NCBI GenBank assembly: GCA_036172665.1
Contig: CM069872.1
Span: 41,712,101-41,776,100 of the forward strand
Direction: 5' to 3'
Source: Prosopocoilus inquinatus
Taxonomy: Eukaryota; Arthropoda; Insecta; Coleoptera; Lucanidae
DNA: 64,000 nt
Shown here: positions 31,863 to 55,857 of the stretch, piece after piece
Numbering within the stretch: position 1 is the stretch's first letter
How the letters are laid out: each line of letters begins with the position of its first letter
Notes under the pieces: generated by a model
Told to the model about the DNA's origin: nothing
What the model saw: the letters and a program-made list of their open reading frames with translations, nothing else
Database searches by the model: none
Program-made: the position numbers and the translations under genes

Positions 31863-31866
31863 ATAT

Positions 31867-32192
31867 TGTTACGTTTCTAGGGTTTGAGTTTATTTATTTA
31901 AACGAATAAAACACTCGATAAAAACTTAACCGTAATTTAATAAAGCTTAAAAACTAATTTATTTGTAATAATTTATTTTCACACTAAAATCTAACTTCGA
32001 CGTTCGCTGTTAGAATTCGACTGCCTCGTGAGTCAACTCCGGGCGATTTTATATCATTTGCTGCCGTCTGGAATCCTCCATGCTGGAGAAATCTAGTCTG
32101 TTCGATGTAGGCTCCGGCCGCGTGACGGCCGATGACACATAACAGCGGACCGACTTCTTGACGCCTTGCGCTAAGCCGGTTGGTGCGCCACA
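31867..32192 (-). repeat. 3' LTR of the gypsy element
   Basis: 326 bp, TGTGGCGCACC...ACGTAACA on the minus strand. It carries a TATA-like ATATAAAA (about 32047-32056) and an AATAAA polyadenylation signal (about 31968-31977). Its first 144 bp also encode the last residues of the integrase/macrodomain frame. Confidence 0.95.
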
Positions 32193-34016
32193 CTGCCCCC
32201 TTCTTAAAAACGTTTCGTCTCGAAATGTTCCTGGTGATAGTCTTGAAGGAGGGTGTCGGAATCTACATGCTGGCCCATTCTTGCAACTTCCCGTCTGGAA
32301 GAAGTAACAGTCTACGGTTTTGCTGTTGCTGACTGTTGCCTGTGGGTGGTGGCTGCAGACTAGAACTTCAATTCCCGTTCTGTGGAAGATGACTTCCAGC
32401 ATGCTTCGAATTACTCTCCAGTCTAGTCCGTCCAATCCGCAGCCCAATTTGGGGATGGCTAACTTCATCTGATGGGTCTCTATTAGCTGTCTCCTCAGGC
32501 TATATAGGGCTCTCCACATACTTTGATAGTCAGGTTTACCGCTTGATGTCTTCTTAGTGACTAAATAATGCACGTGGCGCCTCCGATCTGCCGTCGAATC
32601 AATGATCTGCAAGCTCTTGCCTACCATGGGATGCTGTCTTCGTAGCTCCTCGATTTGGCCAAATTTCTTCCTAAACACCTGAGCGATTCCTTTGGACATT
32701 TTCAGGTCTTCTGCTACGCAGTGGGCCAGACTGTACTCCAGTGGCACTTTAAAGAGATCTTGTTGCTTCTCCGTGGTCACTCCAAACCGTGCCTTGCTTC
32801 CTTCGGCGTGATGAGACATGAAGATTTCGAAGTTCACTTCGGAAACTTGCGCCCTTTGTACTGTCCCTTCATCTGCTTCTCCATGGTAAGGGGCTATCCG
32901 GTTGAAGTGGATTACTTTGGGTTTGCCATGGGGGACCTTCCTGATGCGGTAAACGACGTCGTTAATCCGTTTCATCACTTTGTAAGGACCTTCCCAAGAG
33001 GTCTGTAATTTTGGGGAGAGGCCTCGACGTCTTTGGGGGTTATAAAGCCAGACCAGTGCTCCAGGTTGGTATCCCCCGTGTTGAGCGTTGATGTCATAGT
33101 GCTCCTTCATCCGATCACTGGCCGTCTGTATATTGTGACGCACTTGGTTGTGGATATCATCCATTTTCCTGCGTAATTTGCTCACGTAATCTTCGTCGGC
33201 AGAGACTTCGCCAGGCTTCACACCAAACTTCAGGTCGCAGGGCAGTCTCGGCTCTCGCCCGAATACCACTTTCGCGGGAGTCTCCCCTGTTGTCTCATGA
33301 ACAGATGAGCGGTATGCCATTAGAAACAGGGGGATGTACGTGTCCCAGTCCCTCTGATGATTGGAAACGACCTTGGACAAATGTCGGTTGATGGTTCTAT
33401 TGAACCTTTCCACCATTCCGTCCGACTGTGGGTGGAGTGCAGTTGTTCTAGTTTTTCGTACGCCGAGCAGAGTACACACGTTCTTGAACAAGGCCGATTC
33501 AAAGTTCCTTCCTTGGTCTGAATGCAGTTCCATAGGTGCACCATACCGACTGATCCATTCCCTGACAAGGACTTCCGCAATAGTGACTGCCTCTTGGTTA
33601 GGTAGGGCGTAAGCTTCAACCCACTTGCTAAAGTAGTCCATTACCACGACGATGTACTTGTTTCCACCATTCGTTTCTGGAAACGGGCCGGCTACATCGA
33701 TGGCAACTCTCTCAAAAGGACTTCCAACGTTGTACTGTCTCATGGGAGCCTTACCCCGCCTGTGGGGACCGTTACTGGCTGCGCAGACTGTACACTTTCT
33801 GCACCAATCCTTCACGTCTTCCTTGCAGTTCACCCAGTAAAATCTTTCGCGCACCTTCTCCATAGTCTTCTTAACTCCCAGATGCCCTCCGGAAGTTCCA
33901 TCGTGAAGTTCCCTCAGAACTTCTGGCACCCTATTCTTGGGGATCAGTAACTGTGTCTTCTGTTCCATGCCTTCCTGATTCTCTATGCTTCGTCTCAGAA
34001 GACCACGATCCAACAC
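32049..34016 (-). CDS. Integrase - TARG1-like macrodomain - CCCH zinc finger polyprotein segment
   Basis: 655 codons in the same frame as the upstream pol part; an in-frame TAG at 34077-34079 separates them. Residues about 30-80 form the HHCC zinc-binding region (H38, H45, C72/C75). The DD35E integrase core is D107, D167 and E203. A C-terminal integrase/chromatin-binding-like region runs to about 380. Residues about 411-557 form a macrodomain of the TARG1/OARD1 type: SLAHCVAEDLKMSKGIAQVF, YLVTKK and GCGLDGLDW. K488 and D529 correspond to the catalytic Lys84 and Asp125 of human TARG1, which removes ADP-ribose from acidic residues. Residues 570-588 form a CX7CX5CX3H zinc finger. The last 48 residues lie inside the 3' LTR. 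The role in the element is unknown; counteracting host ADP-ribosylation is inference. Confidence 0.9.
   Translation of the reverse strand: MLDRGLLRRSIENQEGMEQKTQLLIPKNRVPEVLRELHDGTSGGHLGVKKTMEKVRERFYWVNCKEDVKDWCRKCTVCAASNGPHRRGKAPMRQYNVGSPFERVAIDVAGPFPETNGGNKYIVVVMDYFSKWVEAYALPNQEAVTIAEVLVREWISRYGAPMELHSDQGRNFESALFKNVCTLLGVRKTRTTALHPQSDGMVERFNRTINRHLSKVVSNHQRDWDTYIPLFLMAYRSSVHETTGETPAKVVFGREPRLPCDLKFGVKPGEVSADEDYVSKLRRKMDDIHNQVRHNIQTASDRMKEHYDINAQHGGYQPGALVWLYNPQRRRGLSPKLQTSWEGPYKVMKRINDVVYRIRKVPHGKPKVIHFNRIAPYHGEADEGTVQRAQVSEVNFEIFMSHHAEGSKARFGVTTEKQQDLFKVPLEYSLAHCVAEDLKMSKGIAQVFRKKFGQIEELRRQHPMVGKSLQIIDSTADRRRHVHYLVTKKTSSGKPDYQSMWRALYSLRRQLIETHQMKLAIPKLGCGLDGLDWRVIRSMLEVIFHRTGIEVLVCSHHPQATVSNSKTVDCYFFQTGSCKNGPACRFRHPPSRLSPGTFRDETFLRRGQCGAPTGLAQGVKKSVRCYVSSAVTRPEPTSNRLDFSSMEDSRRQQMI
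32193..32207 (-). other. Polypurine tract
   Basis: Minus-strand AAGAAGGGGGCAG directly precedes the 3' LTR, the position where plus-strand DNA synthesis is primed. It is also translated within the upstream frame. Confidence 0.8.
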
Positions 34017-34076
34017 TATGGAGTCCCACTGCGCCCAGTATGATTTTACGGACGATGCACATGGTGCTACCTCTTC

Positions 34077-36974
34077 CTAGGTAGGCCTCGCGTCCCTGCT
34101 TTTCCACTCTAGCACTAATTTCAAATCCGGGTTGTTCTCCTGGTCTCTTCGCAGCTCTTCGGCTTGCCATTTGTCGTCAACAATGGCTGTCCTCGCAGTC
34201 GTGGCTACTTTCTCGTCCAAACGACTACAGTGCTTACAGTCTTCGGCACAGGGTCTTCTCGACAGAGCATCGGCATTTCGATGGCTAGTTCCTGCCCGAT
34301 GCTGAATTTCAAAATCGTACTCCTGAAGTCGTTCGATCCATCGTGCAACTTGCCCTTCTGGGTTCTTGAAACGGAGAAGCCATTTTAGAGCGGCGTGGTC
34401 GGTCCTCAGCAGGAAGCGTCTACCATACAAGTACTTGTAGAAGTGTTCTATCGTTTTTACGACGGCTAGCAATTCCCTTCTTGTGACGCAATAGTTTCGT
34501 TCCGGCTTTGATAGGACTTTACTGAAGTAGCCGATCACCTTCTCTTGCCCCTCTTGTATCTGGGAGAGTACGCCACCAATCCCAACGTTGCTAGCATCTG
34601 TGTCCACGACGAACTTGCCTTCCGGGAGAGGATAACTCAGAATAGGAGCACTAACCAAGTACTGCTTTAGTTGTTCAAAGCCAATTTGACACTGTTGGTC
34701 CCATTCAAATGGACGACCTTCTTCAGTGAGTTTTGTTAACGGCTTAGCAATGTCTGCAAATCCAGGAACGTAGCGCCGATAGTAAGTGCACAGGCCAAGG
34801 AAACTCCTTATTTGGTGTTTATTTCTGGGAGTTGGCCAGTCTTTCACCACCTGAATCTTCACAGGGTCCACGGCGATTCCGTTTCCATTAACAATGTGCC
34901 CCAGGTAATTCACTTCCTTCTGGAACAGGTGACACTTCTTGAGGCTAAGCTTTAGTCCAGCTCCGCGAAGCCGCTGGAACACTCCTTCCAGGTTCCTTAG
35001 GTGGTCGTCGAACGTCTTTCCCACGACAATTATGTCGTCAAGGTACACCATGCACGTTGTCCAGGACAGACCTTTCAGAACCGTCTCCATTAACCTCTCG
35101 AATGTCGCTGGGGCATTACATAACCCGAATGGCATCACTGTGAACTGCCACAGACCCATACCAATGGAAAACGCCGTCTTTTCTCGATCTTCGGGCGCCA
35201 GCTCCACTTGCCAATATCCACTCTTTAAGTCCAAAGTTGAGAAGATCTTTGAGCCGGCCAGGGTGTCCAGGGTATCATCAATCCGTGGCAAGGGATAGCT
35301 GTCCTTCTTGGTGACATTATTGAGTAACCGGTAGTCTACACAGAACCTGGTGGACCCATCCTTCTTCTTCACAAGCACTACTGGTGACGCCCACGGGCTG
35401 CTTGATGGTTCTATTACATTATCCTTTTCCATCTCGCGAATAATGCGTTCCGCTTCCTCACGCTTCGCCAACGGTAATCGCCTTGGAGCTTGACGGATAG
35501 GTCTTTCTTCTCCAGTCTCTATTTTGTGTTTCACGACATCAGTTCTTCCCTTGAATCCATTTTCTACCTCAAATACATCTTGATAGCGGCCGATCAGGTT
35601 CTTTGCTTTTGTCTTCTGGTCTGGAGTCAATTCCTGGGCTGTTGACATAACCATTTCCCATAATTTCCTTGGGACTTTCGCTTCTGGCACGTTTGCTTCA
35701 AGGTGGCGGGAGATGGAGGACACCATGGTGCAGCTTCCCAAGATGGTTCCTTTCTTGATATTGACGGAGAAACAATTGACGTTCATCAGGCGAACAGGTA
35801 CTTCCTTCTTCGCCGTCAACAACATTTTTCCAACGAGGACTCCTCTTCCAATCCTTTGATCATCAGTATTAGGTTCAACCATAATGACTTGCCCATCTTG
35901 AAAAACACCTTCCAGTTTCGCGTCGACGATAACCTCAGTCCTGCTGGGTAATACAACGTCTTTAGCGAGGACTACTCGAGCGGCCACGTCCCCTCGTTGA
36001 TGTAGAACCAACTCCTCATTATTGACCGCCATCACGCCACGCTTTAAGTCCAATTGGAACCCGTGGGCACACATGACGTCCATGCCCAAAATTGCCTCGT
36101 CCTCTATATCTGCCACCAGTGCACGGTGTTTTATTGGAGTTGAACCAATGGTGATGATAACCTCTACTTCACCGTGGACAGTTGCTGATGTTCCAGTTGC
36201 AGTTTTCAGTCTCCACTTGGTCGGCTCGGTGCGTCCAGATGACTTAATGACGTCGGGTCTTAGGATGGTCTTCGTCGCACCCGTATCCAACAACATGGTG
36301 TGAGGAATGTCATCAGTGGTAACATCCACGAAGATACTGCTGGTTAACTGCAGTAGGGATATTACTTGGTTGGCTTTCGTCTTTGGGGGCCTTTGAATAC
36401 GGGTCGACGTTTGCCCCTCTGCACCGACCCGGCTTAGTTTAACTGTGGCTTCCTTGGATCCTGTCTGGGCTTTGGACATCGCCTGCGAACATGTCCTTCG
36501 TCCTGGCCTTTCCAGCGGCTTCTTCTTCTTGAGAACCTGTTCCACAATGCGGCGAACATCCTCGGCGGTGGCATATTCCTTGGATTGCCCCTTATTAGCA
36601 GATCCCACCTTGGCGTTGGTGGACTCTTCCTCTTCTTCCTCTTGGAAGTCCATAGCCGCTCGAACCTTGACATGCCCTCTTGAAACTCGTCTCGCCGCTT
36701 CAAATTCCAAGGCATAAGCCAATGCGTTCTTGGATGTCTTCGGATGGGTCATTCTCAATGCCTGCTGGTTGTCTGGGTCACGGATTCCATCTATGAAGGT
36801 CTGCACCGTCAAACATCTGAGGAATTCAACAGGAGCTGTGGGATATGCCAACTGAGCCAGACGCGCAACGTCTGCTTCGAATTCCTGAAGACTTTCTCCG
36901 GATTTCTGACAGCGATTCCTCAACTGCGCATGGTATACCTCGGTCAGATGGGCCTGTCCGTAACGCATTTCCAT
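34077..36974 (-). CDS. Gag capsid - protease - reverse transcriptase - RNase H polyprotein
   Basis: 965 codons. Residues 1-95 are the C-terminal part of a retrotransposon gag capsid (YGQAHLTEVYHAQLRNRCQK, then LQEFEADVARLA). An acidic and Lys-rich linker follows with no CCHC zinc knuckle; only an isolated TC near 161 remains. The aspartic protease has LLDTGATKTIL (Asp230) and ILGMDV. The reverse transcriptase has VDYRLLN, STLDLKSGYWQ (Asp582), MPFGLCNAPATF and YLDD (644-647). RNase H starts near VVDTDASNVGIGG and ends near RNADALSRRP. The frame ends in TAG at 34077-34079, after which the same frame continues into integrase. The upstream coiled-coil gag frame is offset by -1; the start of the capsid appears deleted at the junction. 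Confidence 0.92.
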   Translation of the reverse strand: MEMRYGQAHLTEVYHAQLRNRCQKSGESLQEFEADVARLAQLAYPTAPVEFLRCLTVQTFIDGIRDPDNQQALRMTHPKTSKNALAYALEFEAARRVSRGHVKVRAAMDFQEEEEEESTNAKVGSANKGQSKEYATAEDVRRIVEQVLKKKKPLERPGRRTCSQAMSKAQTGSKEATVKLSRVGAEGQTSTRIQRPPKTKANQVISLLQLTSSIFVDVTTDDIPHTMLLDTGATKTILRPDVIKSSGRTEPTKWRLKTATGTSATVHGEVEVIITIGSTPIKHRALVADIEDEAILGMDVMCAHGFQLDLKRGVMAVNNEELVLHQRGDVAARVVLAKDVVLPSRTEVIVDAKLEGVFQDGQVIMVEPNTDDQRIGRGVLVGKMLLTAKKEVPVRLMNVNCFSVNIKKGTILGSCTMVSSISRHLEANVPEAKVPRKLWEMVMSTAQELTPDQKTKAKNLIGRYQDVFEVENGFKGRTDVVKHKIETGEERPIRQAPRRLPLAKREEAERIIREMEKDNVIEPSSSPWASPVVLVKKKDGSTRFCVDYRLLNNVTKKDSYPLPRIDDTLDTLAGSKIFSTLDLKSGYWQVELAPEDREKTAFSIGMGLWQFTVMPFGLCNAPATFERLMETVLKGLSWTTCMVYLDDIIVVGKTFDDHLRNLEGVFQRLRGAGLKLSLKKCHLFQKEVNYLGHIVNGNGIAVDPVKIQVVKDWPTPRNKHQIRSFLGLCTYYRRYVPGFADIAKPLTKLTEEGRPFEWDQQCQIGFEQLKQYLVSAPILSYPLPEGKFVVDTDASNVGIGGVLSQIQEGQEKVIGYFSKVLSKPERNYCVTRRELLAVVKTIEHFYKYLYGRRFLLRTDHAALKWLLRFKNPEGQVARWIERLQEYDFEIQHRAGTSHRNADALSRRPCAEDCKHCSRLDEKVATTARTAIVDDKWQAEELRRDQENNPDLKLVLEWKSRDARPT

Positions 36975-37666
36975 CCTATTCCTTCCACAATTCGGGTTTC
37001 ATTATTTTCTAGTACTTCTATTGGTGGCTGATCCCCGAACACTCGCAACCCCGCCATGATTTGTTCCAGATTTTTGATTTTGTTATCCTGCTGGAATATT
37101 ATTTCTTCCACATTTTCTTGCAGGTTTCTTGTTTCTTCCGATATTTTTACCACTAGTTTATCTTCGAGTCCTTTCGTCTGTTCTAGAAATTCACCCTTCA
37201 AATTTCCGGACTGTTCTAGAAGTTTCTCGTCGAAATTTCTGGATTGCTCTAGAAATTTCTCGTCTAAGTCTCTAGATTGTTCCAACAATTTATTCTGTAA
37301 TTTATCGAAATTTCCAGATTGAAGCTTCTCCTCTAAATTTCTGGATTGTTCTCGAAGCTCGTCCTTGAAATTTCCAGATTATTCTAGAAGTTTCTTCTCT
37401 AAATTTCCAGACTGTTCTTGAAACTTCTCGTCCAAATTTCTGGATTGTTCTCGAAATTCATCCTTCAAGATTTTATTAAAATCGACGGGACCACACGAAA
37501 TTTCGAAAAGGAAAGTCTCTGGATCTTCACCAGCTGTCAACAAATCGGATCGGAGACGCTGTTGAAGTGCGCCTTTCAAACCACAGGTTTCTAACTCTCG
37601 TTCTTCCAATTCGGTTTTTAATTCGGCCACTTTTAAGTCTTTCAACAACACTTTTCTCGTAGCCAT
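36944..37666 (-). pseudogene. Gag N-terminal region: SAP-like motif plus coiled-coil repeats, with stop
   Basis: ATG at 37666. The first 45 residues (LLKDLKVAELKTELEERELE and following) resemble a SAP DNA-binding helix-turn-helix. From about residue 75 an 11-residue repeat of the form LEQSRNLDEKF recurs at least seven times, encoded by 33-bp DNA repeats and predicted to form a coiled coil. An in-frame TAA at 37379-37381 interrupts the repeats where other units have CAG or CAA. The frame then continues to a stop at 36944. It meets the capsid remnant in the -1 frame with too little sequence for the N-terminal half of capsid, so an internal deletion near 36975 is likely. Confidence 0.8.
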
Positions 37667-37736
37667 TGTTTTTTTTTAATAATTTAATAATCTGATTAAA
37701 TTTAATTTACTTTAAATTGTTTATTTATTTTCACAA

Positions 37737-37755
37737 ACCCGCACACCGACACCAC
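37737..37755 (-). other. Primer-binding site of the gypsy element
   Basis: Immediately inside the 5' LTR the minus strand reads TGGTGTCGGTGTGCGGG, beginning one base after the LTR. It starts with TGG, as needed to pair with the CCA end of a tRNA. The tRNA is not identified. Confidence 0.7.
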
Positions 37756-38081
37756 TGTTACGTTTCTAGGGTTTGAGTTTATTTATTTAAACGAATAAAA
37801 CACTCGATAAAAACTTAACCGTAATTTAATAAAGCTTAAAAACTAATTTATTTGTAATAATTTATTTTCACACTAAAATCTAACTTCGACGTTCGCTGTT
37901 AGAATTCGACTGCCTCGTGAGTCAACTCCGGGCGATTTTATATCATTTGCTGCCGTCTGGAATCCTCCATGCTGGAGAAATCTAGTCTGTTCGATGTAGG
38001 CTCCGGCCGCGTGACGGCCGATGACACATAACAGCGGACCGACTTCTTGACGCCTTGCGCTAAGCCGGTTGGTGCGCCACA
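37756..38081 (-). repeat. 5' LTR of the gypsy element
   Basis: 326 bp, identical by eye to the 3' LTR at 31867-32192, including TATA-like and AATAAA signals. Followed by the ATAT target duplication. Confidence 0.95.
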
Positions 38082-38085
38082 ATAT

Positions 38086-40760
38086 GATCAAGAAAAAAAT
38101 GTACCTATTGCAAGGAAAATCTGTGAATACTGGTTAAAGAAATTAAAAAATAGCACGTGATCAACAACAAATTATTTCATTGGTGCAAATTTAGGGAAAG
38201 TGAAAAATGTAAAACCAAAACAGTTTCTTTAACTGGCCAATCAAGGGCCAAAGTTATTCTTTAAATCGATTTAACAGAATCTTAGAAAATAAAACACAAA
38301 ATGAAAGGGAAAAAATTAAATACGATATTTTTTATTGCAATATTGAAGACGACAAATCAAAAATGAATTGCAAAGAAAATCTGTGAATTTTGGGTAAAAA
38401 AAGTAATTAAAAAAACACGTGACTTCATTTCAGCAAATAATTTCTTTAACTGCCATAATCAGGATTATTTTAAAAATGGATTATTCGATTATGCTTTAAA
38501 ACGATTTAAAAAATTATGGAATTTAATAAGACTGAATTTTCTTACCATTTTCCTTTTAGTGCAGCCTTCCTTCCTTCGACGCCATTAATATAAAACATGT
38601 CCGGCCGGTCCAGGCGAAGAATTCCAAAAAAAGACGCCTGGCGAAGTCGTTACCAGCATTGTTACTCGTCCTAATCAAAAAGTAATTAAATTACAACGAT
38701 GCATTTTTGCAAAAACTACGAAAAATCGCCAAAAATGCGTAAGTAAATTCGGAGACAAAATTGTCGTTACAACGGCGTGCGTCACGTGATCAAAAATGGC
38801 GGAGCTTCTAGGAAATTCCGCTGAAGCAAACGCCATTCCGGCATTCCACAAAATCATATCCAAAACTATTTGAAAAGCAGAAAATATGAAAATAGCGATG
38901 CATTTTCTTATCGTTTTGATACGGAAAATAGAAATAAAATGCATTTGGCTTGGATTCAGTTACTTAAAGCAAAGAAGGCATCTCTTTTTTTTTTCTTTTC
39001 CTTTAAAAAAAAGCATTGCCTTAAAAATAAGTAGTGATTGCCAAAAATAATAATAAAAGCACAAAAGTATTCAGCAAGGATAAGAAATAGAGCTTTATTC
39101 ACCATTTTTCTGCTGGAAAAGTTTAACGACCTTTCTTCGACGCCAGACAAACAAAACAATTCCGGTACAGATGGACAAAAAAAAATGTCGACCGCCGAAG
39201 TCACAACAACGACGGTCGTTATTAATCCGAACCAAAAAATAACAGAATTACGCGGACTGATTTGCTCAAAAACTACGGAAAATCACCACAATTATAAAAA
39301 TTGCGAATATAAGCGAAAAATGCAAAGCCAAAATAGTTTCTTTAACTGGCAAATCAAGGGCTAAAATTATTCTTTAAATCGATTTAAGAGAACCTTAGAA
39401 AATAAAACACAAAATGGAAGGAAAAAAATTAAATACGACATTTTTTGATGACAGTAATGAAGATAACGAAGCAAAACTGAACTGTAAAGAAAATCTATGA
39501 ATTTTGGGTTAAAAAAAATTAATCAAAAAAGAATCACGTGATCAACAAATGACTTTACTCCTGCAAATTCACTAATAGAAAAAAAGCAAAGCCGAATTAT
39601 TTCTGCAACCGCCATGATCGAGATTATTTTAAAAATCGATTATTCGATTGTGCCTTAAATCGATTGAAAAAATTATAGAATTTAATAAGGCTGATTTTCT
39701 TACCATTTTCCTTTCAGTCCGCCCTTCCTTCTTTCGACGCCATCGAGATAAAACATGTCCGGCCGGTCCAAGCGAAGAATTCAAAAAAAGACGCCTGGCT
39801 ACCAATGTCTTTACTTGTCTAAACCAAAAAGTAATTAATTACAACGACGAATTTCCTCAAAAACTGTGGAAAATCGCCAAAAATGCATAAGCAAAACCCG
39901 GAGACAAAATTATCGTTACAACGGCGTGCGTCACGTGATCGACAATGGAGAAGCTTCTAGAAATTTCCGCCGATGCCTTCTGAAGCAAACGACATTCCGG
40001 CGTTGCACAAAATCACATCCAAAACGATTTGAAAATCAGAAAATATGAAAATACCAATGCATTTTCTTATCGTCTTGATATGGAAAACAAAAATAAAATG
40101 CGTTCGGCTTGGATTCGGTTACTTAAAGCAAAGAAAGCGTTTAGCAAAGGCATTTCTTTTTTTTTTTCATTTACAAAAAAGCATTGTCTTAGTGACTGGC
40201 AAATTTAATAATAAAAGCACAAACGCCGTACAGCAAAAATGAGAAATAATAAATAAATAATAGGCTTTATTTACCATTTCTTCTGCTGGAAAAGTTCAAC
40301 GACCTTTCTTCGACGCCAGACAAACAAAACAATTCCGGTACAGACGGAGGACGAGTCCAAAAAAAAAATGCCGACCGCCGAAGTCATAACAACGACAGTC
40401 TTTATTAATCTGAACCAAAAAGTAATAAAATCACACCGACTGATTTACTCAAAAATTACGGAAAATCGCCATAAACATAAAAAAATGCGAAGCTAGAATT
40501 GAAAACAATCATTCAGGCGTAATTTTCGTAATAACTAATGCGTGACGTAATCAGTAATGGTGGCAGCGCTTCGCGGAAATTCCGCCGAAGCAGACGCCAA
40601 TTCAAACTTTTAGAATACGTTTATACGAAAAATACGAAAAAGATCGATGCGTTTTGGAACGTGAAGCAAGAGCTAATTGCGTTCTGTTTGGATTCCGTCA
40701 CGCTGGAGCAAAGTTCAAAAAAAAATCGTCGTAAATACCAGTCAAAACTGAGGAAATTGC
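38086..40760. repeat. Tandem-repeat tract, right part (about 1.16-kb units)
   Basis: Two diverged units of about 1.16 kb: CTTACCATTTTCCTTT at 38541 and 39699, AATAATAAAAGCACAAA at about 39046 and 40208. Each unit contains a CGACGCCATTAATATAAAAC-type block and a CGACGCCAGACAAACAAAAC block, which are related to each other, so the ancestral unit was about 600 bp. A third partial unit runs to about 40760. CACGTGAT or a close variant recurs near 38152, 38790, 39533, 39930 and 40545. The 190-bp blocks at its left end are those split by the gypsy insertion. No coding frame is conserved between units. Confidence 0.8.
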
Positions 40761-42449: not shown

Positions 42450-45170
42450 ATAATTAATAATTCCCAGAGCTGTATTGATAATATATTTACTGATGTACAT
42501 TGTAATATTCAAGTTGGCGATACGTATCTTTCCGATCATACCTACCAATCAGCAATCACAACTATTTCTGCTAAATCAGAAACAATGACATTCACTTACA
42601 GAAGAAACTACTGTCATGAAAATATACAAATTTTTAGAAACTCACTGGAAATTGAAAATTGGGAAACTGTTTACGAAGGAAATAGCACGAACAGTAACTT
42701 CATAGCCTTCATGGAAATCTTTTTGCATCACTTCGAGAATGCATTTCCTTTACTGCGTAGAAAAGATACTCGGAAAAACGTCGATCGTCCTTGGATGAAT
42801 AAAGAAATCAAAGAGTTACACCAAATGTGTATAGAAATGCATAAACTGGATAAATATCTCAAGTCCAATGATTTTCACAAACGTTATTTACACTTCAAAA
42901 AATTACTTAGAGAGAGATTAGAGCTTGCTAAAGTGACCTATAACAACAACAGAATAAAGAGAGCCACTAATATTTCAAGAGAGAGTTGGAAAATAATAAA
43001 TGAAACTCGGTTAACAGATCATCCAGAGGAGTGGTGTCTGCTGAGTGGGGACGGCAAAAAAATAACGGATAAAAAAGCTATCAGCAACATATTCAATGAA
43101 TTTTTTATCAGCCTCTCAAGCAGTGCAAATGATCCTGCTGAATTTGAATGCGACAATTCGTTTCACCATAGTATTGTTACGTTTCTAGGGTTTAAATTTA
43201 TTTATTTAAACGAATAAAACACTCGATAAAAACTTAACCGTAATTTAATAAAGCTTAAAAACTAATTTATTTGTAACAATTTATTTACACACTAAAAGTC
43301 TAACTTCGACGATCGCTGTTAGAATTCGACTGCCTGGTGAGTCAACTCCGGGCGACTTTATATCGTTTGCTGCCGTCTGGAATCCTCCACGCTGGAGAAG
43401 TCTAGTCTGTTCGATGTAGGCCCCGGTGGCGTGACGGCCGATGACACATAACAGCGAACCGACTTCTTGACGCCTTGAGCTAAGCCGGGTGGCACGCCAC
43501 AGTATGTATCTTGAACCTACAGATAAACATGAAATTCACAAAATTATAAAGAGTAAATGTCTCAAAAGTAGTTGCGGCCTTGATGGTGTGCCTGGCAAAA
43601 TTATCTGTAATGTAGCAGACTTAATCAATGATCCACTCAGTATCGTAATCAACAGTTCTCTAATGGAAGGAGAGTATCCACTAGCTTTAAAAAAGTCACG
43701 AATAATACCCATATACAAAAATAAAGGTGAATTCTTATAGATCGATTGCCGTGCAGAGTCATTTTGGAAAAATTTTCGAAGAAGTATTTAACAGGAGATT
43801 AATAGCCTTCTTAAATAAATACGAACTATTCAGTGACTCTCAACACGGATACAGAACTGGAAGATCTACAATCTCAGCTATTGCCCAAACTTATAATTTC
43901 TTACTTGATCAACTTAACAGGAAAGGTAAAATTTACGCACTTTTTTTGATCTTAGCCGGGCATTTGATTCAGTCAATCTGAATATTCTTGGTCAAAAGCT
44001 TGACAATCTGGGTATTAGAGAAATTCCTAACCAATGGATCAGATCATACTTAAATGGACGTTCTCAAAAAGTTGACATCGCGCAGGTGTTATCGGAAGAA
44101 CTTTATACCGAAGTTGGTGTCCCCCAGGGATCAATTTTGGGACCCATACTGTTCACTTTGTTTATTAATGATCTCCCCAAATTTTGCTCGGTGCCCTCCA
44201 ACATTGTGATCTACGCTGATGATACAACTTTTATTATAACAGAACAAAATGATAAAGATGCTTTTATATCTGCTAATACTTCAGTACTTGAAATGGCTAA
44301 TTGGTGTAAAAATAATGGTTTAATCTTAAATCCAAAAAAATCACAAGTTATGCAAATAATGCCAAGAGGAAGCGTGATATATAAATTCCCGTTAGTGAAA
44401 CATACGAAGCAATCGATTCCTGTAACATTCAGTTGCAAATTTTTCGGCTTAGAACTGGATCATACACTAACGTGGAAACAACATATTGCACATTTAGCAA
44501 GTAAGATCAGCAGTCATACTTTTTTAATTTTCAGATTACGTAACACAATAACTTATGATGTGCTAAGGACATTATATTTCGGACTTGTGTACTCTACGAT
44601 ATCTTACGGAATTATATTTTGGGGAAACAGTGCGGACGCAAATAAAATATTCATACAACAGAAAATAATACTTAGAATAATTGCTAATGTTTCTCCGAGA
44701 ACAAGCTGTAAGCAACTATTTTCACAAATAGGAATAATGACTCTGCAATCACTGTACATTTACAAATTAATTATTTATGCAATGTCCTTGGAAGAAGTAC
44801 CTTTAAATAAGAAGTTCCATGAATACCACACCCGTTCCCGAGAAGAAATTAGACTTCCTTTCAGCCGGTTAGCAGCAGGACAGATGGGTCCACAATACAT
44901 GGGTCTCAAGTGCCTGAAGAAGTTGAACATGTGGAAAGACAACATGCCACGGACACAAAATTCAGTCAAACTCAAACTAAAAAAATTTCTAATAGAAAAA
45001 GCCTTCTACACAGTGGATGAGTTTCTTACGCTGCAAAATTAAAAATTCTTATATTTAATAGTCATAGTAATAATTTTTCTTTCTTAATGTATAATGGTTT
45101 TCCTCCCCTTGACAAGTCAGATGTCAAGTTTTCTGTACACTCTTATTATTATTATCTTATTTATTTATTT
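42450..45170 (+). pseudogene. Non-LTR retrotransposon (LINE), endonuclease tail plus reverse transcriptase
   Basis: 5'-truncated copy. It starts in the C-terminal end of an AP-type endonuclease (SQSCIDNIFTDV, then YLSDHTYQSA), then a linker (ISRESWKIINE) and reverse transcriptase: KSRIIPIYKNKG, SYRSIAVQSHFGKIFEEVFN, DLSRAFDSVNLNIL, VGVPQGSILGPILFTLFIND and IYADDTTF. The C-terminal region continues to a stop at 45042 and a short 3' UTR. Frameshifts occur near 43725 and in a T-run near 43940. A 327-bp solo gypsy LTR sits in the linker at 43175. Reads as Jockey/CR1-type; the exact clade is not determined. Confidence 0.9.
43175..43501 (-). repeat. Solo LTR of the gypsy family inside the LINE
   Basis: 327 bp, clearly the same LTR as at 31867 and 37756 but with a dozen or so differences, flanked by a 4-bp target duplication GTAT (43171-43174 and 43502-43505). 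Removing it restores continuity of the LINE reading frame across the site. Produced by recombination between two LTRs. Confidence 0.95.
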
Positions 45171-52437: not shown

Positions 52438-55400
52438 TCATATGAATGATTGCATGACTTCCTTGCTTGTTTCATGGAATGTCGCATTCATTGCTTCTCT
52501 CGTCATCGCGATCAGCTTGTCGACATCATTTGGGGTCATACCATCAGTTGATATCGGAGGCAAAGTGCTAATTATTATTTTCCCTGTAAATATTTACAAA
52601 TTCTTTATCATTCTAATATAGAGTACAACGATACATTTTCAAAACAATAATAATATGCACAGCTAAAATTCTTACCGTGATCGAAACGACGATTTTTTTC
52701 ATCTAGAAAATAATACTGACTGTAGACAACCGGTAAAATTGGAAGCTGTGCTGAAATCGCCATGTGGAAAGCCCCTTTTTTAAATGGGTGAATTTCTCCT
52801 GTATTATGCCTGGTCCCTTCAGGAAATACCCACAACTTAATCTAAAAAATATATAGTATAAATGGCTTTCATTTCTCATTTTTTAACTTAATTGAAGTCG
52901 ACGCTTAAAAATTGTAAATAAATGGTTTTTATTCTGTTAATAAACGTACTGACTTTGCCAATTTAAATTAAATGTTTTACAGTTATCTTGTATATATAAA
53001 AAAAGGTTAATTTGCTTCCAACTTAGTTTTTGTTAACGTAAAGGTAACAAAAACTAAAAACCCTATCTTAGCTTTTTGTTTCTCTTGACTACTTGTTTAT
53101 TTACTTTTTTCACTCCTGACGAAGCTATCAAACAATAGTGAAACGTTAAGTGCTATTTCTAATTATAATTCTGTCCAGTCAAAGATTAAAAACCATGTAT
53201 TTACAATTTTGACTTTTTAAGGTAATAGGGAATGTCTTTTTTTTATTTATTCATCTTCCATATGGACATTTTTTTTATCAGTAACAATCTTATCTGTCAT
53301 TACCAGGGCACAAAAATAAAAGTAATTTGGTTATCCCTTGTATACCTAAATATTTGTCAAAACTTGTTAAGAATTGACGATAAGGATAGTATGTTATTTC
53401 AGTCACGTTTTAGAAACTGTAAAACATTGCAATTACAATTTAATTATATACTTAGGAAAGCCTTGCAAAACGTATGGTTGCGTGTTGCACGTTTCTTAGC
53501 GCGTGACAGTGCTGGTAAATAATTTCCAGCGGTGTTCATATTTAACATCGACGCATAAAAACTGATTTCGGTAGTAAACATCGATATATCATTGAATAAA
53601 TAATTCCAAATACGGCGCATATCAATAAATAGATAAGGGAATTAATAACGTTATCGTGCAAATATCATGCAAAGACAAAGACTCATGGCCTCTCGTTATT
53701 AAGTTATGTTTACACAGAATGAAACATTTTTCTCCGTGGTGTCAACGATTAAAGTCTAGAATACATAAATAAAAATCCAATTGGGGATTATTGTCACTTA
53801 CAGATAGGAATAATAAATAAATGAAGAAACGTATTGATGGCTGTACGTAACTACTTAGTAAAAAAAATTAGATGTAAAGTGGAAGAATTTAACTAATTTT
53901 GTGTTTTATTATTCAACAGTTTCAATAAAATATGCATTCATTTTACATAATCCTCATTTTGAGTACCTGTATATGAGTCACAATGACCTGACAAACTTAT
54001 TAAATACGACAGCCAGATAAATGATTACTTAATAATACGTACCGAAATAGTGTATCAATAAAACATAAATATTTCCTGCAGTGTTTCGACGAAATATTAT
54101 TTAAAAATTCAGCAGGGAGTCCTGATATTTCGTCGATCAATAAATTGAAAACAAATGTCAAACAGAACAAGAAAACATTTACGAAAAATTCTCTTATGGA
54201 ATATAAAGTACAGAGGAAAGTTGATTGCACATTAAAACTTAAAACAATTGTAAGCAAGCACGTAAGCAGTAACAAATAATAAATTAATCACAGTTTAGCA
54301 AAGTTTAAATTGCTATAATAATTGGAAAGTTAGAAAGAATTATGTTATAAAATGAATATGCATGTTATTATTATTATCTACAGTACCTTGTGGTGTTTTT
54401 GGACAATCAAATATTTCTATTTGTGTCAAATTGAATGTGTATGAGTATAAAATTTTTATGTAGCAGGTTTTTATAAGATACTGAGTCTACATAAACATCA
54501 TTGAAGTAATATATAAGGGAAGTACTCGCACTACCAAAATAGAAACATTTATAGCTCTGTTTCATGCAAATATTTACAGTAGTCTGCAAATGTAAACAGT
54601 TTATTCTTATTTACTGTGGAAGAAACACAAACTTTAAATACTAAAATAAAAACTAGTTGACAACATTATTTATTTGCAATATGTTTATTTGTGTAGGCGA
54701 CAGTCTGTTAAGGGTGATAGTTTTACTTACACAAAGTATGCAAAATGTATTAAAATTGTTACAATCGAAAGGTTTCTTATAATCTGTTTCTTACTGTAGC
54801 AAAAGGTTATTATCAATATCAAAAACAGTCAAATTTAAACAAACTAATGCAGAAAAAAATCACTCAATTTTGCTTTTCTTTTCTAGCAACAAATGTTGAC
54901 CAGTAATAACTAATTACGATTAGTAAAATAATGAAAGACATGCGTTTTAGTTTTATCAAAAAGTATCAGAGTACTGTGCAAGCACATAAACACATTGTGT
55001 ATGCTACGAAAACTCAGCGTTAAATTAAATTATTTTAAGGAAACTTCAACAACATATTAAAAAGAAATGATCAAACTGCAAGCTTCTGTTAAAAAGAAAT
55101 TAAAAGCACATAATCACATTGTGTATGCTATGGAAACTCAGTGTTAAATTAAATGAAATTATGGAAATTGCAAACAACATATAAAAAAGAATTGATCAAA
55201 CTGCAAGCTTGTGTTAACGAGAAATTAAAAAAATTGTAGATACTTTACTTTTTTCTTTTTAATTTCTTCGGCAGCATCGCGCATTGTATTGCGAGCTTTG
55301 TCCGAGTTCATCCTATCAATAAAAATAAGCCCGCACAGCCATGCAGCCAATCCAAAAGGCCAAGCGTACATTAGTTCCTTTTTAGCGACAACCGTACATT

Positions 55401-55857
55401 TGTCCATAATGGGCCACAAATCAAACATCCCTGGTAAAACCACACCGAAGTTAGTAAGTTGTCTCCGAAATAGAAGTGGCTTACCTAAAATATCCAGGGA
55501 GCTTTGGTGATTTGCAACCATAATATAGGATTGGTCTTTCTCTAAATGCTCTCTCCCTCTGATCACCCATCTAAGCCCCAGCAAAGCTGATATCGGTTGG
55601 CAGAAGGCAGAAGCGGTTCTATAATGATTCTTACAAGTGAAAGTGTATAGGCCGAGGTGAATATCTATTTACACCAGATTTCGTACGTCCTGGGCTTTGA
55701 ACGAGAAATATGGAATTAAAATTAAAGAGTTAATGGACACCATGATGTAGTACATGAAAAACTTTAAATAAAACCTGAACACCTGACTAGATTCGTAGAG
55801 GAATGGTAAAATTAAAATGCACCCGGCCAAAATGATCTCCGTGTAGGATGCGTACAT
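52438..55857 (-). CDS. AGPAT: 1-acyl-sn-glycerol-3-phosphate acyltransferase (LPAAT), five exons
   Basis: Exons 55857-55673, 55618-55485, 55430-55249, 52841-52676 and 52583-52438 join in phase to 270 aa. The enzyme acylates lysophosphatidic acid to phosphatidic acid at the ER membrane. Two hydrophobic segments lie at residues 7-20 and 33-50. Catalytic NHX4D is NHQSSLD at 98-104; later motifs are FIDR (143-146), FPEGT (173-177) and LPILPVVYSQ (200-209). The intron between exons 2 and 3 is only 54 nt (55484-55431), in frame and free of stops. The 2.4-kb intron between exons 3 and 4 holds repeats, including a 124-bp tandem duplication next to the donor. The gene starts 578 bp from HERC2, divergently. 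The exact AGPAT paralogue is not decided. Confidence 0.95.
53095..53215 (+). repeat. Possible Penelope-type terminal-repeat remnant in AGPAT intron
   Basis: CTGACGAAGCTATCAAACAA followed by TAGTGAAACGTTAAGTG resembles the CTGAxGA...GAAACG core of Penelope-type terminal repeats. No coding remnant accompanies it. Weak. Confidence 0.25.
54981..55229. repeat. 124-bp tandem duplication in AGPAT intron
   Basis: Two copies beginning AGCACATAA(A/T)CACATTGT, at 54981 and 55105, each running through CAAACTGCAAGCTT to GAAATTAAAA. It ends about 20 bp short of the splice donor at 55248. Confidence 0.9.

Follow-up and report, generated by a model that had tools for sequence, protein, structure and literature searches.

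The window analyzed here, a stretch of 64,000 nucleotides from the beetle Prosopocoilus inquinatus (assembly GCA_036172665.1, contig CM069872.1, positions 41,712,101 to 41,776,100), contains on its minus strand a Ty3/gypsy long terminal repeat (LTR) retrotransposon (31867-38081), recognized by its LTR pair and pol domains. The second of two adjacent pol frames of this element (P0001, 675 aa, 32049..34076, minus strand, delimited by the open frame and a Pfam scan) encodes an integrase with H2C2, rve, and p58_C domains, followed by a macrodomain of the TARG1/OARD1 type and a CCCH zinc finger. The p58 C-terminal domain (residues 363-396, 32889..32990, E 3.4e-13) is the last integrase domain ahead of the macrodomain, which spans residues 433-576 (32349..32780); the finger, of the form C-x7-C-x5-C-x3-H (residues 590-608, 32253..32309), resembles one finger of CPSF4 (E 1.1e-07). 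The frame closes with a conserved LRRGQC tail, which is the translation of the polypurine tract (32193..32205, assigned by position and make-up) and the start of the LTR. The Pfam scan of P0001 listed no chromodomain up to E 1.

TARG1 (OARD1) is a hydrolase that takes ADP-ribose off glutamate and aspartate. Structure comparison placed TARG1 nearest to the predicted fold of the window's macrodomain, and among the structure matches listed, TARG1 and DarG rank ahead of the alphavirus and rubella rows, which are of the MacroD type. The observation made in an earlier note on this DNA is confirmed, and the predicted fold supports its proposal of a TARG1-type macrodomain fused behind a Ty3/gypsy integrase. 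The two catalytic residues named there, numbered K488 and D529, are indeed present as K508 (32553-32555) and D549 (32430-32432); phmmer aligns them to Lys84 and Asp125 of TARG1, with the same spacing of 41, and a published report identifies this Lys/Asp pair as the catalytic residues of TARG1. The Pfam Macro profile, which had been suggested as a check, missed the window's domain when used alone, and NCBIfam produced DarG matches only, all of them below the cut-off. From the sequence and the predicted fold, we infer that the macrodomain has hydrolase activity in the element.

A protein search with residues 411-625 yielded 170 proteins; all counts for this set come from the best 120, which include 102 from Aromia moschata and 16 from Molorchus minor (both of which we take to be longhorn beetles) and two unnamed ones, at 53-58% identity. 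The CCCH finger is found in 117 of these 120 relatives and the LRRGQC tail in 99; the integrase C-terminal motif, macrodomain, and finger co-occur in 109, and together with the tail in 92, and the integrase-macrodomain-CCCH order is found again in longhorn beetles. Public annotation gives relatives names such as "C3H1-type domain-containing protein" and "Cleavage and polyadenylation specifi...", which conceal the macrodomain. Searching with the macrodomain alone retrieved 15 proteins, including ones from Brassicogethes aeneus, Pyrocoelia pectoralis, Aquatica leii, and Macrosteles quadrilineatus, and showed the domain to be present in pollen beetle, firefly, and leafhopper proteins. When 135 relatives were pooled, Lys occupied the position of K508 in all 133 aligned rows and Asp that of D549 in 133 of 134, many of these rows being near-copies within one genome and hence not independent. 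Across insects, the macrodomain retains its frame and catalytic residues at about 53-62% identity. Between the window and the relative P0036, 104 of 125 residues are identical in the rve core, 82 of 144 in the macrodomain, and 5 of 14 and 9 of 22 in two linker pieces ahead of it; the macrodomain is better kept than its linkers and less well kept than the integrase core.

The earlier note had named absence of the domain from all other copies of the family as a refutation of its proposal, and this is not what was observed. Besides the insect relatives, a search of the 650-Mb Prosopocoilus inquinatus assembly with the window's macrodomain gave 1,425 first-look candidates, the best 150 of which are 97-100% identical, with a stop-free domain in 148; a search with the Brassicogethes relative gave 1,409, with 149 of the best 150 stop-free (the scored copies are in both cases the best-matching rows and no random sample). 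Many other copies keep open frames of approximately 1,450-2,030 codons around the macrodomain, and uninterrupted copies of the window's family therefore probably exist. Twenty copies were drawn with their surrounding DNA stepwise down the match list of the window's macrodomain. In 17 of them, a direct repeat of the copy's own 3' LTR, at least 125 bases long, lies upstream; in nine of the 17, the repeat is identical over the part covered. In the other three, the upstream repeat was not found or reached only 50 bases. Two of the 20 stretches contain both window-type LTRs complete, each copy with its own 4-bp target duplication. A chance fusion or one-off chimera is ruled out by the copy number and the relatives in other insects.

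The same genome also harbors the macrodomain in gypsy-like Pol frames of other architectures. A search with fly OARD1 gave 1,299 candidates; the best 150, which were scored, include domains 46-54% identical to fly OARD1, compared with about 41-42% for rows of the window's family, and ten loci were read in detail. In L064, L065, and L070, the macrodomain lies within a single frame and the flanks are alike; a Pfam scan of L064 and L065 identified a protease upstream of it. The stretch that follows L064 (L074) encodes reverse transcriptase (RT) and RNase H in a frame open for 1,916 codons, so that the order in L064 with L074 is protease-macrodomain-RT. L066 has H2C2, rve, and p58_C domains, then a macrodomain (Macro E 2.4e-08) and acidic repeats, without a CCCH finger, and L067 resembles it in layout (by reading; the Pfam scan covered L066). 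The repeated acidic motif, of the EWDxEDEIPLSEL kind, lies downstream of the macrodomain at L066:1927-2427. L068 and L071 have a protease followed by a macrodomain, L069 has a macrodomain frame with no further Pfam domain, and L073 is a member of the window's family. The best PDB match is TARG1 for L064 (E 1.8e-38), L066 (E 3.5e-42), and L068 (E 3e-39). Since the position of the macrodomain in Pol differs, at least two placement events within Pol would have occurred, and the domain between protease and RT in L064 with L074 weakens the earlier suggestion of a role specifically in integration. The remaining locus, L072, probably represents the OARD1 gene of the host, which would contain an intron and lies apart from the elements: its sequence stops after GIAVNFR and resumes past an acceptor-like TTTCAG within approximately 60 bases, and Macro is the only Pfam domain in its second piece (E 0.0002, just under the cut-off). 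The element domains that were compared run without a break across this intron point, as would be expected of a capture through RNA.

A phylogenetic tree of 91 domains, rooted at the midpoint and including no named beetle host OARD1, placed the 17 rows labelled beforehand as element-type in one clade (100/99), nested within a larger clade (98/98) made up of these, the named animal OARD1 rows, and unnamed rows. Two leafhopper proteins named OARD1-like group within the element clade, and the phage-collection and Paenibacillus/Bacillales rows fall outside the animal OARD1 clade under this root. This topology supports ancestry of the element macrodomain in the host gene and, with it, the capture that the earlier note had proposed. 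A second tree of 58 rows, which took in the genomic loci as well, keeps these loci out of the window-type clade (99/97) and places them among host rows on a weakly supported backbone. An origin from phage-collection domains was rejected because the seven TARG1-like loci fall outside the clade of animal rows. These macrodomains (L001-L007) come from seven viral-collection contigs and are 33-37% identical to that of the element. SKG/SRG in place of GAG was dropped as a diagnostic motif, given that host-like rows vary at this site too.

The explanation we favor, with a probability of roughly 0.6, is that insect Ty3/gypsy elements took in the host TARG1 (OARD1) and have retained it as a functional component of Pol through which they escape host ADP-ribosylation. 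The host gene would have been acquired by the elements and retained in the Pol polyprotein; the macrodomain would be made with Pol, packed into the particle and, either fused or cut free, would remove ADP-ribose placed by host PARPs or sirtuins, lifting the host block. Candidate targets are Gag or Pol bearing ADP-ribose, the ends of RNA or cDNA, and chromatin or silencing factors. As judged from sequence and structural model, the domain most likely acts as an ADP-ribose eraser against ADP-ribosylation by the host, and escape from this modification would presumably be the benefit to the element. Because the catalytic pair is kept and the place in Pol varies between families, a role independent of the integrase tether appears likelier than one in targeting. 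Several published observations support the idea of such marking by the host. In PARP-1-deficient flies, five of the eight mobile elements that changed significantly rise (PMC7712786); L1 is silenced by SIRT6 through ADP-ribosylation of KAP1 (PMC4695847); restriction of retrotransposition has been described for ZAP, a PARP-family member of the CCCH type (PMC4441479); and the review by Rack suggests that ADP-ribosylation of RNA may aid recognition of transposon-derived RNA (PMC7050489).

Alternatively, the domain could be a reader that binds ADP-ribose at DNA breaks or in active chromatin and steers integration. The chromodomains of chromoviruses sit behind the integrase and likewise steer integration, and in the window's family and L066, the macrodomain follows the integrase C-terminal domain. 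Nevertheless, the catalytic Lys/Asp pair of TARG1 is retained in nearly all aligned relatives, and the L064 macrodomain lies between protease and RT, away from the integrase, making the reader role unlikely. Slightly less likely again is a narrower form of the favored explanation, without antiviral or silencing use of the mark, in which the enzyme clears PARP-made ADP-ribose off cDNA or RNA ends so that integration or reverse transcription can proceed. Phosphorylated nucleic-acid ends are among the substrates from which TARG1 strips ADP-ribose (PMC7050489); fused to the integrase, the enzyme would sit at the cDNA ends, and the CCCH finger could hold RNA. In L064, however, a macrodomain between protease and RT has no particular access to the ends of cDNA.

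Under another scenario, which we regard as very improbable, the macrodomain is a passenger or structural spacer, picked up by accident and spread along with a successful element without any enzymatic use. A recent burst alone could explain the high copy number (the median difference among 21 window-family sequences is 1.3%). Against this scenario stand the persistence of the frame and catalytic residues across insects and the presence of the domain in several architectures. Moreover, there are signs of purifying selection on the macrodomain. When dN/dS was compared between the macrodomain and the rest of the stretch common to each locus pair, the macrodomain gave the lower value for L064-L065 (0.13 vs 0.35, with pS of 0.63, near saturation), L064-L070 (0.14 vs 0.41), L068-L069 (0.19 vs 0.31), and L066-L067 (0.24 vs 0.35). 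Within the window's family, two samples of 20 copies gave pooled pairwise pN/pS values of 0.34 (ranking by fly OARD1) and 0.16 (ranking by the window). Both lie below a simple neutral simulation, whose 40 runs had a median of 0.83 and spanned 0.43-1.56, although samples taken from lists ranked by protein similarity may be biased. On flanked loci, read on both strands without gaps, pN/pS came to 0.28 in the macrodomain (16 loci) and 0.52 in an integrase part (14 loci, with two dropped; indels may inflate this value), and these figures were not used in the argument. We know of no step in the retrotransposon cycle that requires deacylation of O-acetyl-ADP-ribose, and a metabolic function, in which the domain deacylates this or a similar compound for the particle, unrelated to ADP-ribosylated macromolecules, is as improbable as the passenger scenario. 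In its favor, TARG1 acts on O-acyl-ADP-ribose too (PMC7050489).

Apart from the ranking bias, a number of observations count against an active eraser with a conserved role. The fold binds ADP-ribose, and a purely binding role is possible. Relative P0112 has Gly in place of the catalytic Asp, firefly P0124 lacks the CCCH finger, and pollen beetle P0122 lacks its first Cys. In L071, the frame ends inside the domain, for which Pfam gives no Macro match; downstream of L068, RT was not found in the one of two longer frames that was scanned. The close pair L065-L070 exhibits no extra constraint on the macrodomain (dN/dS 0.60 vs 0.65), and the control stretch for L068-L069 comprises 67 poorly aligned codons. 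In the PARP-1-deficient flies, three of the eight significantly changed elements fall, ten further elements go up, nine from the gypsy superfamily, but lie outside the false discovery rate or p limit of the study, and the effect may be indirect via Lola and Mod(mdg4) (PMC7712786). Finally, the tree cannot tell one capture from several because a topology holding all 19 element domains as one group is not rejected (approximately unbiased test, p 0.377). That distinct Ty3/gypsy lineages of one insect genome captured TARG1 more than once, ADP-ribosylation being a general insect defense against retrotransposons, is a tentative proposal to which we give somewhat less than even odds. If it holds, the erasers encoded by the elements would correspond to the macrodomains of viruses, and the CCCH-macrodomain pair would mirror ZAP and other antiviral proteins of the CCCH-PARP kind.

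A leading sign that ADP-ribosylation can act against viruses comes from the macrodomains of RNA viruses. Those of coronaviruses and alphaviruses share the fold of the element's domain but are of the MacroD type, with reported (ADP-ribosyl)hydrolase activity (PMC7050489). TARG1 (OARD1, C6orf130; ALC1-like class) is a free-standing host enzyme, whereas the element's domain is part of the Pol polyprotein. A similar fold occurs among BFVD predicted structures in VP8 of Kadipiro virus, thrips virga-like viruses, and invertebrate iridescent viruses, which are RNA or DNA viruses and not retroelements; Kadipiro virus VP8 is 41% identical to the element macrodomain, closer than human TARG1. These structural relatives suggest that arthropod viruses took in such macrodomains too. 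Orchid Ty3/Gypsy elements with an ALKBH5-like m6A eraser have likewise captured a host eraser of a regulatory mark, but these are plant elements with a demethylase rather than an enzyme of the ADP-ribose hydrolase type (PMC9289625). LTR retrotransposons of bdelloid rotifers are also invertebrate elements with captured enzymes, although different ones: ORF3 (GDSL esterase, DEDDy exonuclease) and dUTPase (PMC5408684). In ray-finned fish, a review describes epsilon-like endogenous retroviruses that carry macro-domain open reading frames, but they belong to a vertebrate retrovirus lineage with the macrodomain as an additional frame, and the passage mentions no macrodomain class and no fusion to Pol (PMC4977317, citing Basta et al. 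2009). In view of these fish retroviruses, the earlier suggestion of a new retroelement system has to be toned down; none of the matches listed in searches of the open-licence PMC literature reports a Ty3/gypsy element with a macrodomain. What the present observations add is an eraser-like domain from a different macrodomain class, conserved in Ty3/gypsy elements that are very abundant and in many cases have near-identical LTRs. They suggest that insects may mark retrotransposons with ADP-ribose and that elements may counter it, a question on which the element domain offers a direct handle.

The rest of the element also lies on the minus strand. The 3' LTR (31867..32192, 326 bp, TG...CA), within which the pol frame terminates, and the 5' LTR (37756..38081, 326 bp) match exactly, so the insertion appears recent; they are adjoined by the target-site duplication ATAT at 31863..31866 and 38082..38085, respectively. 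A gag-like frame (37379..37675) starts with a SAP domain (Pfam E 1e-07), and an in-frame stop divides it from a second gag-like frame (36944..37378) that contains 33-bp (11-residue) repeats and had no match in the Pfam scan. The upstream pol frame (34077..36998, 973 aa) encodes protease, RT, and RNase H (Asp_protease_2 E 1.9e-09, RVT_1 E 7.1e-38, RT_RNaseH E 1.1e-33) and ends at an in-frame stop (34077-34079). The Ty3/gypsy order protease-RT-RNase H-integrase is thereby present but split over two adjacent frames, and the window copy has two in-frame stops, one in gag and the other between RNase H and integrase. The G+C content of the element (32001-38000) is 43-50% in 2-kb steps, against 27-41% across the remaining window. 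Beside the 5' LTR, pieces repeated approximately 1.11-1.18 kb apart occupy 38198-40500, and an RT frame at 43930-45042 (RVT_1 E 3.8e-26) presumably belongs to a non-LTR element. The window also contains two host exons, one with a BTB domain (1995-2420) that we take to be of the lola/mod(mdg4) kind and the other with an acyltransferase domain (55225-55668).
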